From the NCBI RefSeq assembly GCF_027257155.1, contig NZ_JAPWDU010000005.1, positions 310,001-374,000 on the forward strand: a stretch of 64,000 nucleotides of DNA, read 5' to 3'. This stretch comes from Cerasicoccus sp. TK19100 (GTDB lineage Bacteria > Verrucomicrobiota > Verrucomicrobiia > Opitutales > Cerasicoccaceae). A program made the position numbers and the translations under genes. The notes below the pieces were generated by a model. That model saw only the letters and a list, made by a program, of their open reading frames with translations. It was not told the origin of the DNA and did not search any database. How positions within the stretch are numbered: the first letter of the stretch is position 1; every line of letters begins with the position of its first letter. Shown here one piece after another: positions 49,494 to 58,588 of this stretch.

Positions 49494-51044
49494 CTAACCC
49501 TGCTGCAATTCAGGTTTAATCGTTTGAGAGAGTATTTCCTGGAGCGCGCTAAGGGCCTCCGTACGGTTGCGGGCGTTGGAGACGAATATCTCCAGCTTGA
49601 TCTTGCCGTCCTTGCGCTCGCCGTTCCAGGTATCCGTGAAGCGGTCCAGCTTGAAGCGTCCGGTCTTTTGGTGATAAGGGAAGTTTGTCTTATCCCACTG
49701 GCAGTAAAAGACATACATCTCGGCGTCGCCGTTCTGGAAAATGTAGGTATTAAAAACCAGTTCCAGTCCGTCGGGCCCTTGCCAATGGAAGTCATCCTCT
49801 CGCTTGACCATTTGAAAACCACTGGCGGGAAGGCAGGCCTCGGGGCGGTGAATACCCCCCAACTGCGCGGCGCGGGCGCTGTCCCAACGTAAAAAATACG
49901 CCATCCAGTGCATGTTGCCCGGGCCATCCCAAGTGGCCAGCTCGCCCTCGCTGTAGTGGAGCACCTCCTCAATGCGCGGGTTGATCGGCTGAAATTCGAC
50001 AGGCTTGGCCATCTTTTCCCATTGGAAATCCCAGCCGGCAAACTTTACCGGCTCAACGCGCCAAGCATACCATGCCCATACGGCCGGCACGGAGGCTAGC
50101 ATGAGCACCATTAGCGGGATGAGGGGCTTGGCCGGGAGCAGTCGCGGCTCGTAGTCCTCGGGGAGGGGGGCTCCGTCGATCGCTCCGTAGTGGTCGGATC
50201 GGAGCTTCTGCGCGAGCGCGGTTAGCATCAGCAGGCCAAACAGGCTCATCACGAAGACCATGTAGCCTGCCGGGTCGTGCCAGCGTTCCATGACTTCGCC
50301 GCCCTGGCGCGCGGTAACAATTGTCAGCACCAACGTGCGCACGTAGTTGAAGGATACCGCCAGCAGGCAGCCCGAGAGAATCAGCCCAAAGCGCACGCGC
50401 CACTGAAAGCGCAGCAGCTCGCCCAGAAAATAAGACGCCATGAGTGTGGACTGGAGAGAGCGCACGCCGCTACAGGCCTCTTCCACGCTGACCAGCCCCC
50501 GTGAGAGCTGGATGATGTTGCCACTACGCTCCGCAAAGACCCCCAGCAAATTTGCCGACTCGACCACCCAACTGGCGACCATGCTCATGAGCCCGACCAC
50601 GATGGATTTCTCGATCGTCATCGGCCAGGGGTTGGCGAAGAGCCAGAAAAAGACAGCCGGTGCAAAGTGCTTTATCCATGGCCGACCTCCCCAGTAGAGC
50701 AGGAAGCCCATGCTCACGACGAAGGTCAGCAGCGCCTGGACCCACGTCAGCACGCGCCAGTCGGCGTTGGCGTCGTAGATAATGCGAAACGGCGTCAGCA
50801 GGATCGTCAGCGAGATAAGCATTGCCCACAGCCCGATGGCCTTGCCCTGGGGCTCGGGCTCCGGGCGGTCACCCCAGCGCCGGAATAGCAGATAAGCACC
50901 CAGCAGCGGGACGAAGAGCCCGTAGCCATACTGGTCATTGAGCAGCCACTCCGCCGAGAGCTCGGACCAAAGCAGCAGCCACAATAGCAGCGGTGCGGCC
51001 AGGTTGATCCAGCCAGTCAGCTTCGGTTTTGAGGGGGCGTCCAT
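49494..51044 (-). CDS. Exosortase fused to an EpsI-type domain
   Basis: 516 residues. The first about 300 form a polytopic exosortase. Its transpeptidase-like triad is visible as C191 in VEEACSGVRSLQ, R236 in FNYVRTL and H256 in WHDPAGY. The C-terminal about 190 residues, after the last helix, match the EpsI/DUF3485 domain that accompanies many exosortases (FQPINPRIEEVLHYSEGELATW, HRPEACLPASGFQMV). The enzyme processes PEP-CTERM proteins at the inner membrane, and a PEP-CTERM protein is encoded at 57509. Start by ATG at 51044 without Shine-Dalgarno. Confidence 0.93.
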   Translation of the reverse strand: MDAPSKPKLTGWINLAAPLLLWLLLWSELSAEWLLNDQYGYGLFVPLLGAYLLFRRWGDRPEPEPQGKAIGLWAMLISLTILLTPFRIIYDANADWRVLTWVQALLTFVVSMGFLLYWGGRPWIKHFAPAVFFWLFANPWPMTIEKSIVVGLMSMVASWVVESANLLGVFAERSGNIIQLSRGLVSVEEACSGVRSLQSTLMASYFLGELLRFQWRVRFGLILSGCLLAVSFNYVRTLVLTIVTARQGGEVMERWHDPAGYMVFVMSLFGLLMLTALAQKLRSDHYGAIDGAPLPEDYEPRLLPAKPLIPLMVLMLASVPAVWAWYAWRVEPVKFAGWDFQWEKMAKPVEFQPINPRIEEVLHYSEGELATWDGPGNMHWMAYFLRWDSARAAQLGGIHRPEACLPASGFQMVKREDDFHWQGPDGLELVFNTYIFQNGDAEMYVFYCQWDKTNFPYHQKTGRFKLDRFTDTWNGERKDGKIKLEIFVSNARNRTEALSALQEILSQTIKPELQQG

Positions 51045-51176: not shown

Positions 51177-51977
51177 ATGGAACCAAAGAAAGCTCCCCTC
51201 AAGCAGAACCGCAGCACGTTTGATAAGGCATTCGACGCTCTGATTAATTGGGTCGAGGCTAAGAATATCCAGTACTCCACCGTCGGCAATCCACCAATTT
51301 ACAACAACAACGTTTTTCCGTGGGCGGCCGAGATCGAAAAAGACTGGGAGCTGATTCGTGAGGAGCTGGAGGACGTGCTGGAAGACCGCGAAAGCCTGCC
51401 GAGCTTTCACGAGATCACCAAGGAGGTGGAGACCATCACCACCGATAACAACTGGAAAACGTTCTTTCTCGCCGGCTACGGGATTGAGTGTGAGGAAAAC
51501 CGCCGCCGCTGCCCGAACACCGTCAAAGCGCTGGAGAAAATCCCCGGCATGAAGACGGCCATGTTCTCCATTTTGTCTGAGGGAAAGCACATCCCAGCGC
51601 ACCGCGGACCTTATAACGGCGTCCTACGCTACCATCTCGGTCTTCGCGTGCCGGAGCCCCGCGAGCAGTGCCGCATCCGTGTGCACGATCAGTTTTATTC
51701 CTGGTCCGAGGGCGAGGGCGTGATCTTCGACGACTCTTTCGACCATGAGGTTTGGAACGACACCGATGGCGTTCGTGTGGTGCTTTTCGTGGATTTCCAG
51801 CGCCCGATGCGCGGCTTTGGCAACTGGCTCAACAGCATGGTGATCAACCTCGCCAAGCACACGCCTTACCTCAAGGAAGCGAATAAGAATCAGAAGGAGT
51901 GGGAGAAGAAATTCTACGCCAAGAAAAGGTCCCAGAAGAAGGCCGAAAAGCGCGAAGAAGTCGGCGTGGGCAAGTGA
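51177..51977 (+). CDS. Aspartyl/asparaginyl beta-hydroxylase family dioxygenase (LpxO/OlsC-like candidate)
   Basis: 266 residues. AHRGPYNGVLRYHLGLRVP carries iron-ligand candidate H142 and the Arg of LRYHL. EGVIFDDSFDHEVWNDTDGVRVVLFVDFQRP carries H190 and the 2-oxoglutarate-binding R200. This is the Asp_Arg_Hydrox fold used by peptide hydroxylases and by the lipid hydroxylases LpxO, OlsC and OlsD. There is no signal peptide or obvious membrane helix, and the tail is Lys/Glu-rich. The nearby ornithine-lipid synthase-like gene at 54598 makes a lipid fatty-acid hydroxylase the better guess, but this is inference. Confidence 0.85.
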   Translation: MEPKKAPLKQNRSTFDKAFDALINWVEAKNIQYSTVGNPPIYNNNVFPWAAEIEKDWELIREELEDVLEDRESLPSFHEITKEVETITTDNNWKTFFLAGYGIECEENRRRCPNTVKALEKIPGMKTAMFSILSEGKHIPAHRGPYNGVLRYHLGLRVPEPREQCRIRVHDQFYSWSEGEGVIFDDSFDHEVWNDTDGVRVVLFVDFQRPMRGFGNWLNSMVINLAKHTPYLKEANKNQKEWEKKFYAKKRSQKKAEKREEVGVGK

Positions 51978-52072
51978 GGCCCTCTTTGCCCGTTAAGTTG
52001 TGCGAAGCCGTCCCTTACGATTGCATAATTCGTCATTGATCGGCGAAAGCTGAGCCTACATCGTATCGGGCA

Positions 52073-54451
52073 GTGGAAGAAGCTACCATATTGCGCGATT
52101 TGACTCTGGTCGTCGGCGTTGCTGCAGTCGTAACCGTTGTATTTCATTTACTGCGGCTACCGGTCATCCTGGGCTACCTGCTGGCGGGCTTGATCATCGG
52201 GCCGAGCTTGCCTGAGCTGCCAAATCTCAAGGACGCCTCAGTCATCAACCAGCTCAGTGAGCTGGGCGTAGTCTTCCTGATGTTTACCATCGGCCTCGGC
52301 TTCGATTTGGGGCGTGTGCAACGGGTCTTTTGGCCGGCTTTGCTGGCGGTGTCCCTGCAAACGGCGCTCGCGTTCTTCATCGGAATGCTTTGTGCGCCGC
52401 TGGTCGGCTATACGCAGATTGAAGGCATTTTCCTGGGCGCAGTGTTGACCAATTCCGCTTCCATGGTCTGCCTGCGGCTGCTGCGTGACCAAAACCGCCT
52501 TAACAGCGTGGAGGCGCAGCTCGCGATCGGCTTGCTCGTCTTTGAAGACATCGTGGCCGTGCTGCTGCTGGTGATTCTGGGCGGGGTCTCCGTATCCGGG
52601 CACATCGATTTCGGGCAGGCACCGTTTGTGATCATTGGCGTGGCGATCTTCGTGGTCGCGGTGTATTTCTTTGGGCGTATGGCGGCGGCCAAGCTGACCA
52701 CGGTGCTCAAGCGGGCGGGCAGCGTGGAGTTAATCACGCTGGTCTCCGTAGCGCTGGTGTTGGCCGTCGGCTGGCTGGCAAGCGAGCTCAAGCTCTCCGT
52801 GGCGCTGGGGGCGTTTTTGGCGGGGGCAATCCTCGCGCAGAGTAATCTCTCCAAGGAGATCGAGCGTGTCACCGAGCCGCTGCGTGATCTCTTCTGCGCC
52901 GTCTTCTTCGTGGCGATCGGTATGCTGATCAACCCCACGTGGATCTGGAACAACCTTTTTGCCGTGATCGGCATTGCGCTGCTGGTCGTGGTGGGAAAAT
53001 TACTGGCGTGCTGGCTGGGCTTTTTCCTGGGAGGCGCTCAGCCCGAGGTCGGTTTCCGCGCCTCGCTGCCCAAGGCTAGCGTCGGGGAATTCGGCTTCAT
53101 CCTCGCGGCAATGGGCTTTAGCCAGGGCATCACGGGTGACGGCCTGACTAGCATGACTGTTGGGCTGGCGATCACGACTTACCTGATCATGCCAGTGGTC
53201 AATGCCAAGCCCGACAAGCTTTTCCATGCGCTCGCCAACCGCTGTCCCGACGTGCTCAAGCGCGCGACGCGCATCTATGCGAGCATGCTCGACGCGGTGG
53301 GGCGCTACATTGGACGCAGCGCATTTGCCCGCCTGGCCCGGCGCCCATTGCTGCAGGTGGTCTTCTACTTTTTGGTGCTCAATTCCATCATCGCCAGCGC
53401 CTACATTGGCTCGCATTTGCTGGAAAATTGGGCCGAGATTCGCGGCTTCGAGGACATCACGCAGCTCGGCGTGTGGATTGTGGCTGCGGGGCTTTGTTTG
53501 CCGTTTTTGACCGCGATTCTACGCAATTTAGACGTGCTGATCCTGCTCGTGACCGATGCGGTGATTGGCGAATCCCGCGACCGCCAGACCTTGCTCGGCG
53601 GCATGAAAAACCTGTTCCACACGCTGCTGCTTTGCGTGGTGCTGGTGCTCTTCGGGGGGCTCTATTTATCGGCGGCGTCTTACTTTTTCCCCTCCGGCAT
53701 TACGCTGATTATCTTCCTGTTGTTGTGCGGAGTGGCTCTGGTCCTGTTCTGGCGATCAATCAACCAGGTAAACAGCCGCATCGAGTTCCTCTTCTACCAA
53801 AGCTTCCAGCAGCACTCGCGCGAGAGTGATGAGCAGGCCCGCGAGACCGCGCTCAAAGAAATCGCCGGGCGCAACCCATGGGAGGCGCAGATCACCGAGC
53901 ACGAGTTGTCCATCGACTCCGTCGCCTGCGGCAAAGAGCTCAAGCAGCTCAAACTGCGATCCGAAACCGGTGCTCAGGTAATTGCCATTTCGCGCGGCGG
54001 GATGACCCGCTTTGACCCGTCACCACACATCCCGCTCTTTCCCGGCGACCATGTGATTCTCTACGGCGAGAGTGAACAGGTAAGCGCGGCCATCCGCATG
54101 CTTGAAGCAAAGCGCAAGGTCGATCCCGCCAGCACCGACCCGCACGAATTCCGTATTGAAAAGACCTACATCGGCGGGCATTCCGACCTGGTCGGCCGGA
54201 CACTCGCCACCGCTCAATTACGCAAAGAATACAGCATCACGGTGCTCGGCATTCAGCGTGGCAAAAAGCGAATTGTCTCACCGCCAGCCGACGAGCTGAT
54301 CCAACTGGGGGATATCCTGCTGGTCGCTGGCCGCAGTGACGCCGTGGCGGCCTTCATGGCGACCCATCAGCCGGAAGACCTCGGCGAGGTCACGCCAGCT
54401 GAAGTCATCGTGGATCAGGAGCCGCCTCAGGATGAGCGATTTAAGCCATAG
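52073..54451 (+). CDS. Kef-type cation:proton antiporter with TrkA-C domains
   Basis: 792 residues with a GTG start (GTG GAA GAA) giving the usual ILRDLTLVVGVAAVVTVVFHLLRLPVILGYLLAG opening of the CPA2 family. About 12 helices cover 1-395, with ASMVCLRLLRDQNRLNS and LVFEDIVAVLLLVILGG as the conserved core. A second group of about 4 helices (430-570) is followed by two TrkA-C-like regulatory domains (about 605-690 and 705-780). It exchanges K+ or Na+ for protons. Unlike KefB/KefC it has no complete TrkA-N nucleotide-binding domain. It sits between the hydroxylase and OlsF-like genes. Confidence 0.9.
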   Translation: MEEATILRDLTLVVGVAAVVTVVFHLLRLPVILGYLLAGLIIGPSLPELPNLKDASVINQLSELGVVFLMFTIGLGFDLGRVQRVFWPALLAVSLQTALAFFIGMLCAPLVGYTQIEGIFLGAVLTNSASMVCLRLLRDQNRLNSVEAQLAIGLLVFEDIVAVLLLVILGGVSVSGHIDFGQAPFVIIGVAIFVVAVYFFGRMAAAKLTTVLKRAGSVELITLVSVALVLAVGWLASELKLSVALGAFLAGAILAQSNLSKEIERVTEPLRDLFCAVFFVAIGMLINPTWIWNNLFAVIGIALLVVVGKLLACWLGFFLGGAQPEVGFRASLPKASVGEFGFILAAMGFSQGITGDGLTSMTVGLAITTYLIMPVVNAKPDKLFHALANRCPDVLKRATRIYASMLDAVGRYIGRSAFARLARRPLLQVVFYFLVLNSIIASAYIGSHLLENWAEIRGFEDITQLGVWIVAAGLCLPFLTAILRNLDVLILLVTDAVIGESRDRQTLLGGMKNLFHTLLLCVVLVLFGGLYLSAASYFFPSGITLIIFLLLCGVALVLFWRSINQVNSRIEFLFYQSFQQHSRESDEQARETALKEIAGRNPWEAQITEHELSIDSVACGKELKQLKLRSETGAQVIAISRGGMTRFDPSPHIPLFPGDHVILYGESEQVSAAIRMLEAKRKVDPASTDPHEFRIEKTYIGGHSDLVGRTLATAQLRKEYSITVLGIQRGKKRIVSPPADELIQLGDILLVAGRSDAVAAFMATHQPEDLGEVTPAEVIVDQEPPQDERFKP

Positions 54452-54597
54452 TGGAACTCATCGGGTTTTTAATCTACCCGCTTTAAAACACTTTCGGCGC
54501 TAGCCGAGACGGGGTGGTTCTCCACGTCTGAGTGAGACTTCCCACCGTGCTTTTCTTGCTTGTGGCAGCATGGGGGATTAGTAGTGTTTAATGGTTT

Positions 54598-56421
54598 ATG
54601 CCGTCCGAATCGCCTAAACCGCTGATTGATGTCCGGGAGTCTCTTTCGGGCTGGCAGCTCAAGCTGTATGAGCTGGGTGGCAAACCGCTGAACGACTTTC
54701 TGGGCATTTCCGCGCTCAATATGTATTACCAGCGGGTGGTGGATGACCACTCGACGATCAACTTCTACGAGCGCGCCCTGCGGTCGCTGAATGTCGCCTA
54801 TGAAGTCAGCGAGGAAGACTTGGCCAAAATCCCCCGCGAGGGCCCCACGCTCGTCGTGAGTAACCATCCCTTCGGCATGGTTGATGGCGTCGTTTTTGGC
54901 GCGCTGCTGACGAGCCTGCGTGACGACGCCAAGCTGCTCGCGAATTACCTGCTCACCAAGATGAGCGAGATCCAGCCGTGGATGATCGCCGTGGACCCCT
55001 TTGGTGGTCCGGAGGCGGCGCGTAGTAATTTTGCCGCGCTTAAGGAGACGATGCGTCACATCAAGGACGGCGGCTGCATTGGCACGTTCCCCTCGGGCAC
55101 GGTGTCGCACTGGCAGTGGAAAACACGGCAGATCACCGACCCGCTCTGGCTGGACAATACCGCGCGCATCATCCACAAGTCGCAGCCGACCGTGGTGCCG
55201 CTTTACTTTGAGGGGCGAAACAGCCTCGCATTTCAAATCGCCGGCATGGTCCACCCGCTGCTGCGCACCGCTTCACTCACGCGTGAGTTGTCCCGCCAGG
55301 CCAACAGCGTCGTGCGCCTGCGTATTGGCCAGCCGCTGACCTACCGGCAGCTCAAGGACTTCCCCTCGCATCAAGCGCTGATGGATTTCCTGCGCTTAAA
55401 AACCTATTTACTGGCCAAGCGCGAGGGTGAAGAAAAGCCGCGCCGCTTCTCCTTCCCGCGTTTGCCCAAGCGCGAGACGCCAATGAAGGAGGTCGACCCA
55501 TCCACTGCACCCGAAGTGCTGGCGGCGGAGATTGACGGCCTGCCCGAAGATCGCTTGCTCACCGAGCACGGCGATTTCAAAGTTTATTGGGCGCACGCCG
55601 AGGAAATCCCTGAAGTGCTCGAAGAGCTCGGCCGTCTGCGCGAACGCACCTTCCGTGTGGTGGGCGAGGGGACTGGTGAGTCTACTGACCTCGACCGCTA
55701 CGATCTGCATTACCGTCACCTTTTTATGTGGGACGCCAAGGCGCAGGCCATCGTTGGTTCTTACCGCATCGGTTTGGTCGACGAGATATTGCTCACCCGT
55801 GGCCGACAGGGGCTTTACACAGCATCGCTGTTTAACTTCAAGCAGGAGTTCTTCGAAAAGCTGGGCCCGGCGCTGGAGGTGGGCCGCTCGTTCATTGCGG
55901 TGGACTACCAGAAAAAGCACGCCTCGCTCTCCATGATTTGGCGCGGTCTGGGCCTGTTTGTGGTTCGCCACCCGCAATATCGGACACTCTTTGGCCCGGT
56001 GAGTATCAGCCAGGAATACAACGCTGTTTCCAAGGACCTGATGGTGAAGTTTCTCAAGAAGAACAAACTCCACCACGAGCTGGCCAACTACGTATCCGCC
56101 AAGCATCCGCCGCGGGGTAAAAAACTCGGTGCCAGCGAGAATCAGGCCATGCTTTCCTCAGTGCGCAGCATCGACGACGTCTCCGCGCTAATCTCCGAAA
56201 TCGAAATTGACCAGAAGGGCGTCCCCGTTCTGCTCAAGCACTATCTGAAGCTCAACGGCACGCTGCTATCCTTTAACGTCGACCCCGACTTCGGCAACTG
56301 CCTGGACGGTCTGATCCTGGTCGACTTCACCAAGTCCGACCAGCGCCTCCTCAAGAACTATCTCACCCCCGAAGGCCTCCGCAGCTTCCTGGAATACCAT
56401 TCGGTCGAGGCGCTGATTTAG
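54598..56421 (+). CDS. olsF: Bifunctional acyltransferase, OlsF-like ornithine-lipid synthase
   Basis: 607 residues. The N-terminal half (about 55-290) is a PlsC-like acyltransferase with VVSNHPFGMVDGVVFG (H90 and D96, the H-x5-D variant), PFGGPEAARSN and IGTFPSGTVSHW. The C-terminal half (about 320-600) is a GNAT-type acyltransferase resembling OlsB: LGRLRERTFRVVGEGTG, GSYRIGL, ALEVGRSFIAVDYQKKHASL and FGPVSISQEYN. This order matches OlsF of Serratia, in which the C-terminal part N-acylates ornithine and the N-terminal part adds the ester-linked acyl chain. The product would be a phosphorus-free membrane lipid. The gene symbol rests on domain order only. Confidence 0.8.
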   Translation: MPSESPKPLIDVRESLSGWQLKLYELGGKPLNDFLGISALNMYYQRVVDDHSTINFYERALRSLNVAYEVSEEDLAKIPREGPTLVVSNHPFGMVDGVVFGALLTSLRDDAKLLANYLLTKMSEIQPWMIAVDPFGGPEAARSNFAALKETMRHIKDGGCIGTFPSGTVSHWQWKTRQITDPLWLDNTARIIHKSQPTVVPLYFEGRNSLAFQIAGMVHPLLRTASLTRELSRQANSVVRLRIGQPLTYRQLKDFPSHQALMDFLRLKTYLLAKREGEEKPRRFSFPRLPKRETPMKEVDPSTAPEVLAAEIDGLPEDRLLTEHGDFKVYWAHAEEIPEVLEELGRLRERTFRVVGEGTGESTDLDRYDLHYRHLFMWDAKAQAIVGSYRIGLVDEILLTRGRQGLYTASLFNFKQEFFEKLGPALEVGRSFIAVDYQKKHASLSMIWRGLGLFVVRHPQYRTLFGPVSISQEYNAVSKDLMVKFLKKNKLHHELANYVSAKHPPRGKKLGASENQAMLSSVRSIDDVSALISEIEIDQKGVPVLLKHYLKLNGTLLSFNVDPDFGNCLDGLILVDFTKSDQRLLKNYLTPEGLRSFLEYHSVEALI

Positions 56422-57508: not shown

Positions 57509-58408
57509 TTACGCTTGGCGTTTGCGACGGCGCAGCATCATTAAGCCAAGGGATACGGCTCCGAGCGCCATCGCAGTCGTGGACGGCTCTGGAACAGCAG
57601 CTACCGTAATGGAGCCCGATCCGCCATCCTGGAAGATCGAATCGTAGGTCGAGTTGAGCGTTGCATAAGAATACGTGCCTTCGCTCAACGTATCACCCGC
57701 AATCGTTAAGGCTGAGAAGGTCAGGCTTTGATCCAGAACAAAAGTCGTGCCAGAGGCGATATTCAGTCCACCCGCGGAGGTGAAATCATTATCGAAGTTC
57801 AAGCGGCCCAGATTTAGATTCACGTTTCCAGTATACGAGCTTGCATCCAGTGCGCTTAAGTTTGCCCGACTGCCGCTGCCGGCGCTGCCAGCGCCCACGA
57901 TAATGTCGGAGGAGCCCAAAAGTGTGTCCACATTCAGGCGCACACGACGGAAATCATTAGTGCCCAAATCGAGCGCTCCGTTGAGCGTCAAGGCCGTTAC
58001 ATTCAGACCACCACCCAGGGTGTTATCGAAATTATTGGTGCTCAGCGAAGAACCGCCGGCCTCGACATTGAGCGTGCCTACGGTTGAATCGATGGAGGCG
58101 TCGTGAAATGCAAGGAGGAGGGAGCCGCCGGATAGATTCAGGGAATTGCCGCCAAAGGTATCTTGCGTCGAAGGCGTGCGCAGAGTGAAGCCGTTGTTAA
58201 AGTAATCACCGTTAACATCAAAGCTGGTAAGCTGGCTGCCGCCTGCAGGGCTGTCATACCAGCTGTTGGTGCTGTTTACTGTCTCCCAATTATTAGGACT
58301 AAACTGGTTTTGCTGCAGAAAGTAATCAACGGCATTGGCGGAAGGGAAGCTGCTTGCCACTACGCCAAGGATCGCGAGGGATGGTATCTTTTGTAGCATC
58401 GTTTTCAT
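57509..58408 (-). CDS. PEP-CTERM sorting domain protein
   Basis: 299 residues from the ATG at 58408, which opens a signal peptide (ending SSFPSANA). The body is a Gly/Ser/Asn/Leu-rich repetitive beta-structure (NSLNLSGGSLLLAFHD, LNVTALTLNGALDLGTND, NLNLGRLNFDNDF) like autotransporter beta-helices. The C-terminus is VPEPSTTAMALGAVSLGLMMLRRRKRQA, a full PEP-CTERM signal with motif, hydrophobic helix and basic tail. The exosortase at 49494 is the likely processing enzyme. The protein would be exported and attached at or released from the cell surface. Confidence 0.93.
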   Translation of the reverse strand: MKTMLQKIPSLAILGVVASSFPSANAVDYFLQQNQFSPNNWETVNSTNSWYDSPAGGSQLTSFDVNGDYFNNGFTLRTPSTQDTFGGNSLNLSGGSLLLAFHDASIDSTVGTLNVEAGGSSLSTNNFDNTLGGGLNVTALTLNGALDLGTNDFRRVRLNVDTLLGSSDIIVGAGSAGSGSRANLSALDASSYTGNVNLNLGRLNFDNDFTSAGGLNIASGTTFVLDQSLTFSALTIAGDTLSEGTYSYATLNSTYDSIFQDGGSGSITVAAVPEPSTTAMALGAVSLGLMMLRRRKRQA

Positions 58409-58588
58409 GTTAGGGGGTCTGTTGAGTATGAGGTGAATATGGCGCTTCAAATTAGAGCTGAGCATCATATGTATGAATTGAAACCTATATTTTAGGGCCT
58501 CATTCAACAAGCATGCCAGTGGTGTAATCGTTCACCAACAAGTGGCAGCTATCGCTGCGTGACGTATGAGCGGAGAAGTCGTAACTTC

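Follow-up and report, generated by a model that had tools for sequence, protein, structure and literature searches.

Does the verrucomicrobium Cerasicoccus sp. TK19100 carry the means both to make an ornithine lipid and to hydroxylate it? The question is raised by two genes, one for a putative lipid synthase and one for a putative lipid hydroxylase, that lie on the same strand 2.6 kb apart with an antiporter gene between them. They were found in a 64 kb stretch of DNA (hereafter, the window) from the 5.07-Mb genome of this member of the Verrucomicrobiota (family Cerasicoccaceae). Our reading is that the locus encodes enzymes that make an acyloxyacyl aminolipid, ornithine lipid being the likeliest, and then 2-hydroxylate it; on the sequence evidence set out below we put its probability at about 70%.

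Organization of the locus

As originally predicted, both open reading frames are present on the plus strand: an olsC-like gene for an Fe(II)/2-oxoglutarate dioxygenase of 266 aa (51177..51977) and an olsF-like gene for a bifunctional aminolipid synthase of 607 aa (54598..56421). They are not chance ORFs, because each is full-length and conserved in all ten genomes of the family. The intervening gene (52073..54451, plus strand) encodes a CPA2-type cation:proton antiporter with Pfam domains Na_H_Exchanger and TrkA_C, and is separated from olsC and olsF by 95 and 146 bp, respectively; we claim no part for it in the lipid pathway.

On the minus strand, an exosortase gene (49494-51044) diverges from olsC across 132 bp, and is one of five exosortase-family proteins encoded in the genome. 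Downstream of olsF, also on the minus strand, the product of a gene at 57509-58510 ends in a C-terminal PEP-CTERM motif scoring just under the Pfam cut-off, and is a likely exosortase substrate.

A scan for sigma-70 promoters was uninformative (none found against 1.8 expected). Using a Pho-box consensus that we take to be the E. coli one, and whose relevance to Verrucomicrobiota is uncertain, no Pho-box-like site was found near olsC or olsF; the whole window held three matches to that consensus against 4.5 expected. The originally suggested benefit at low phosphate thus gains no support from the sequence.

A synthase of the OlsF family

The published layout of OlsF combines an OlsB-like C-terminus with a PF19576 N-terminus unlike OlsA/PlsC (PMC11631085). 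The window protein has the same domain order, as had been predicted for it: an O-acyltransferase domain (PF19576, Acyltransf_2; residues 55-273, 54760..55416, plus strand) is fused ahead of an N-acyltransferase (GNAT) domain (PF13444, Acetyltransf_5; residues 347-447, 55636..55938, plus strand). At least 42 of 44 aligned rows retain the motif N89-H-P-x-G-x-x-(D/E)96 of the N-terminal domain, and many GNAT residues are kept in every aligned OlsF row.

The best NCBIfam match of the protein is likewise OlsF (386 bits, E 3e-115, residues 49-589), the other scores being 146 bits for GlsB, 91 for GlsA and 39 for OlsB. Because 386 bits falls below the equivalog cut-off (NF052615, 620 bits), we file the protein as OlsF-family and not as a curated equivalog. 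That cut-off looks narrow: the Aeromonas caviae protein passes (739 bits), but relatives from Photobacterium (431), Vibrio (428) and Flavobacterium (414), which do not score much higher than the window protein, all fail. Both V. cholerae homologues, which are 30-33% identical to the Serratia enzyme, are reported to have made ornithine lipid in E. coli (PMC12186959).

In a quick tree of OlsF proteins, from which the fragment L235 was left out, Bacteroidota and Vibrio rows were interspersed among those of Verrucomicrobiota. At two loci (L109 and L110, in genomes G219 and G291 of family f29, genus g68) OlsF is seemingly split into adjoining GNAT and acyltransferase ORFs.

A dioxygenase of the OlsC clade

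The 266-aa protein covers the whole Pfam PF05118 (Asp_Arg_Hydrox) profile (E 3e-54), and is the only PF05118 protein in the genome. This places it in the LpxO/OlsC superfamily, as first proposed, and scores, phylogeny and active site all put it on the OlsC side. Its best NCBIfam match is OlsC, at 348 bits (E 2e-104). The OlsC equivalog cut-off (NF052565) is 450 bits, so we file the protein as OlsC-like; none of 54 related genomes yields a protein that passes. For reference, three rhizobial OlsC proteins score 534-538 bits with the OlsC profile and 124-125 with LpxO, while the LpxO of a Salmonella record scores 107 and 513 bits, respectively.

In a 57-row tree the window protein falls inside a 46-row clade that includes Rhizobium tropici-type OlsC (support 94/95). 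AspH falls outside (99/97), as does an NRPS-linked row from Streptomyces, and a Mycobacterium row is also outside the OlsC clade. The dioxygenase thus did not cluster with peptide hydroxylases, the outcome that the original prediction had named as its refutation. Deep branches are long, and the tree does not settle the sister of the window family or its nearness to rhizobial OlsC within the clade. This tree leaves out the long row L100 and also L119, an ORF read in the wrong frame, which had a very long branch and probably comes from the same genome as G186, whose protein L098 stayed in; an earlier 59-row tree that included L119 gave the OlsC clade a support of 100/99. Of 80 named OlsC loci, 33 served as rows in the first tree, the remainder being left out as duplicates of family rows (L113-L117) or for size.

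It might be argued that the dioxygenase acts like LpxO, with lipid A as its substrate, its nearness to olsF being accidental. The two enzymes share a Pfam superfamily, olsC and olsF do not keep their adjacency, and lipid A is a plausible substrate given that LpxC is present in the genome; moreover, forcing the window family together with LpxO was only marginally rejected (p-AU 0.041). Against this, the protein scores just 144 bits with the LpxO profile (NF033391, cut-off 500), less than half of its OlsC score, it lies outside the separate LpxO clade (100/99), and it has no Asp at the position where all four LpxO rows complete an HxD motif. We give an LpxO-like role little credence. There is also precedent for confusion of the two names, since a Brucella/Ochrobactrum gene annotated lpxO was reportedly shown to be olsC, the gene for the hydroxylase of ornithine lipid (PMC5767591).

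Two MAG contigs titled Akkermansia muciniphila (L132 and L181, isolate AH-24oct19) carry olsC. Their genomes are of 5.2 and 7.9 Mb; both group with other Verrucomicrobia MAGs and are probably misnamed.

Active site and structure

The predicted iron and 2-oxoglutarate residues H142, R151, H190 and R200 are all present and align with AspH. The first predicted iron ligand, H142 of an H142-x-G144 motif (codon at 51600..51602, plus strand), and the second, H190 (51744..51746, plus strand), which coincides in the alignment with the second His of the AspH active site, are each invariant in 58 aligned rows. The spacing of H142/R151 and H190/R200 is that of H679/R688 and H725/R735 in AspH, which we take to be active-site residues. 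Of the 58 rows (L119 dropped), 54 carry Gly at position 144; the other four, with Asp, are precisely the LpxO rows. It therefore seems that the iron site of OlsC, like that of AspH, consists of two His and no carboxylate. A literature search returned no paper making this point; the search was too broad for that to count as evidence. With HxG in the OlsC clade and HxD in the four LpxO proteins compared, the iron site seems to come in two forms among lipid hydroxylases. The contrast sits at 51600-51608 of the window, and the LpxO/OlsC comparison rows are L064, L065, L066 and L068.

An AlphaFold model of the dioxygenase (pLDDT 87.1, pTM 0.84) finds AspH as its best PDB match in Foldseek (E 1e-15, TM 0.78 by target). 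Together with the shared HxG site, this might suggest that the enzyme is an AspH-type hydroxylase of peptides or amino acids, and a homologue on a Mycobacterium riyadhense plasmid (L067), 43% identical to the window protein, lies directly after an NRPS adenylation-domain gene. The structural match carries little surprise, because any member of the superfamily should resemble AspH, and no LpxO or OlsC structure was among the 50 Foldseek matches listed; AspH and both the NRPS-associated rows fall outside the OlsC clade. An AspH-type activity is accordingly very hard to credit. The neighborhood of L067 nonetheless means that close relatives of OlsC may act on other substrates.

Distribution and linkage

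Among 54 genomes searched, olsC occurs in all ten members of the family and in none of 44 other relatives. Full-length OlsF (above 280 bits) occurs in 29: the same ten, and 19 of the 44. The two genes are neighbors in only two of the ten family genomes, Cerasicoccus sp. TK19100 and C. frondis. The antiporter gene also adjoins olsC in C. frondis and in C. maritimus, in the latter without olsF; in C. arenae neither the antiporter gene nor olsF adjoins olsC, and in six further genomes (G004-G009) olsC and olsF are on separate contigs or hundreds of kb apart. Of the 80 named OlsC loci, searched by HMM with flanks of up to 6 kb (shorter where contigs end), only that of C. frondis contained an OlsF ORF. 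We therefore do not accept that the closeness of the two genes proves that they act together. The proposal of a locus for hydroxylated ornithine lipids keeps its enzyme assignments, drawn from domains, HMM scores, phylogeny and residues, and loses its argument from proximity.

The divergent olsC-exosortase pair is commoner than the olsC-olsF pair, being present in six of the ten family genomes (G000-G004 and G006) and in three genera. A link of lipid hydroxylation to protein sorting is conceivable.

In a sample of 288 genomes from the phylum, OlsC was found in six, and matches to the OlsF profile (E 1e-30), some of them partial, in 102. A strong PF13444 synthase is present in 9 of 11 distinct verrucomicrobial OlsC carriers outside the family, usually as a separate, OlsB-sized protein, and in 7 of 7 alphaproteobacterial carriers; six other carriers (G338-G343) comprise two with a strong match, three with a partial match and one with none. 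The co-occurrence is suggestive only, because 153 of the 288 phylum genomes also have a strong PF13444 protein.

OlsC homologues in genomes without a recognised OlsB or OlsF (G186/G328, taken as one genome, G333 and G338) raise the alternative that the dioxygenase hydroxylates some other membrane lipid, such as phosphatidylethanolamine, and acts on the aminolipid secondarily or not at all. Indeed, 2-hydroxylated phosphatidylethanolamine is reported from Burkholderia (PMC7814305). OlsF is nevertheless carried by every one of the ten family genomes, and the rhizobial and Brucella OlsC enzymes tested are described as acting on ornithine lipid (PMC5767591); we see only a slim chance that another lipid is the main substrate. 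A GH3 (OlsH-type) synthase is present in G186 and was considered as the partner of its OlsC. We rejected it as not specific, since GH3 occurs in 29 of the 288 phylum genomes, 17 of them in the family to which G186 belongs.

Predicted pathway and head group

From characterised relatives of the two enzymes we infer the two reactions, the head group and the position hydroxylated. The C-terminal GNAT domain of OlsF would acylate ornithine at its alpha-amino group with a 3-hydroxyacyl chain, to whose 3-hydroxyl the N-terminal acyltransferase domain would next attach another acyl chain in ester linkage. OlsC, a dioxygenase that depends on O2, Fe(II) and 2-oxoglutarate, would then hydroxylate carbon 2 of the ester-linked chain. 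An O2-using enzyme needs oxygen, which fits a family described as obligately aerobic, with marine and other sources (PMC10288369). The profile search found no second PF13444 protein in the Cerasicoccus sp. TK19100 genome, and no GH3 protein was found there.

The same enzymes could serve another head group, with OlsF making mainly a lysine or other amino-acid lipid and OlsC hydroxylating that. OlsF of F. johnsoniae expressed in E. coli is said to have given both ornithine and lysine lipids (PMC4484230, citing Vences-Guzman), and the GNAT domain of the window protein also resembles the glycine N-acyltransferase GlsB (its 146-bit match). Over its whole length the protein nonetheless matches OlsF best, and A. 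muciniphila, whose sole recognised synthase is of the OlsF family, makes ornithine lipids. Another principal head group is, in our judgment, unlikely.

A. muciniphila is reported to make ornithine lipids OL 29:0 to 32:0 that are immunomodulatory, and the genes for their synthesis were called unidentified in a paper of December 2025 (PMC12710885). A term search of a 2023 paper (PMC9981464) found no mention of OlsB, OlsF or an Amuc gene. Searches of the open literature, covering few subscription papers and no preprints, for OlsF or OlsB in Akkermansia and for OlsF in Verrucomicrobiota found no such assignment. The chromosome of A. muciniphila ATCC BAA-835, given as 2,664,102 bp (PMC3048395), contains a candidate OlsF ORF of 613 codons at about 702450-704291 (minus strand), the product of which (613 aa) scores 394 bits and is 41% identical to the window protein. 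It is the only PF13444 protein of that genome at E 1e-15, and no GH3 protein was found there. That this organism makes ornithine lipids with OlsF as its only PF13444 match lends in-phylum support to our reading of the window synthase.

In the phylum sample, OlsF occurs in 22 genomes of the Akkermansia genus (code g59), a count of carriers alone, and OlsC was found in none of the g59 genomes. The Akkermansia and window enzymes are not sisters in the OlsF tree, so the argument draws on their common family and on the absence of any other recognised candidate. We think it highly probable that the OlsF family of the window provides the ornithine-lipid synthase of A. muciniphila, with Akkermansia, lacking OlsC, making plain lipids and the aerobic Cerasicoccaceae, possessing it, making forms heavier by 16 Da.

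Comparison with known systems

Both window genes are new members of known families, OlsF and OlsC. Should our reading be right, the range of hydroxylated aminolipids would take in a marine family of Verrucomicrobiota, in which OlsC has OlsF as its partner and not OlsB/OlsA as in the classic rhizobial arrangement; there would also be one candidate gene behind the ornithine lipids of A. muciniphila.

With OlsF of Serratia proteamaculans, Vibrio cholerae and Flavobacterium johnsoniae the window synthase shares PF19576 followed by PF13444 in one chain of about 600 aa, and the conserved motifs. It differs in being verrucomicrobial, and is 37% identical to a Vibrio relative and 34% to a Flavobacterium one; it is below the NCBIfam cut-off, as those two relatives are. 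The GH3-dependent OlsH/OlsI pathway of planctomycetes (PMC12493201) shares the lipid class; the window genome has no GH3.

The dioxygenase resembles OlsC of Rhizobium tropici, Ochrobactrum and Brucella microti in identity (51-57% over most of its length), clade and HxG...H site. It differs from rhizobial OlsC in its lower profile score, in forming a sub-clade of its own and in having OlsF, not OlsB/OlsA, as its genomic partner. With LpxO it has superfamily and type of reaction in common, but not clade. With AspH it shares the fold and a two-His site with Gly; identity is about 30%, and AspH stands outside the clade that unites the window protein with OlsC.
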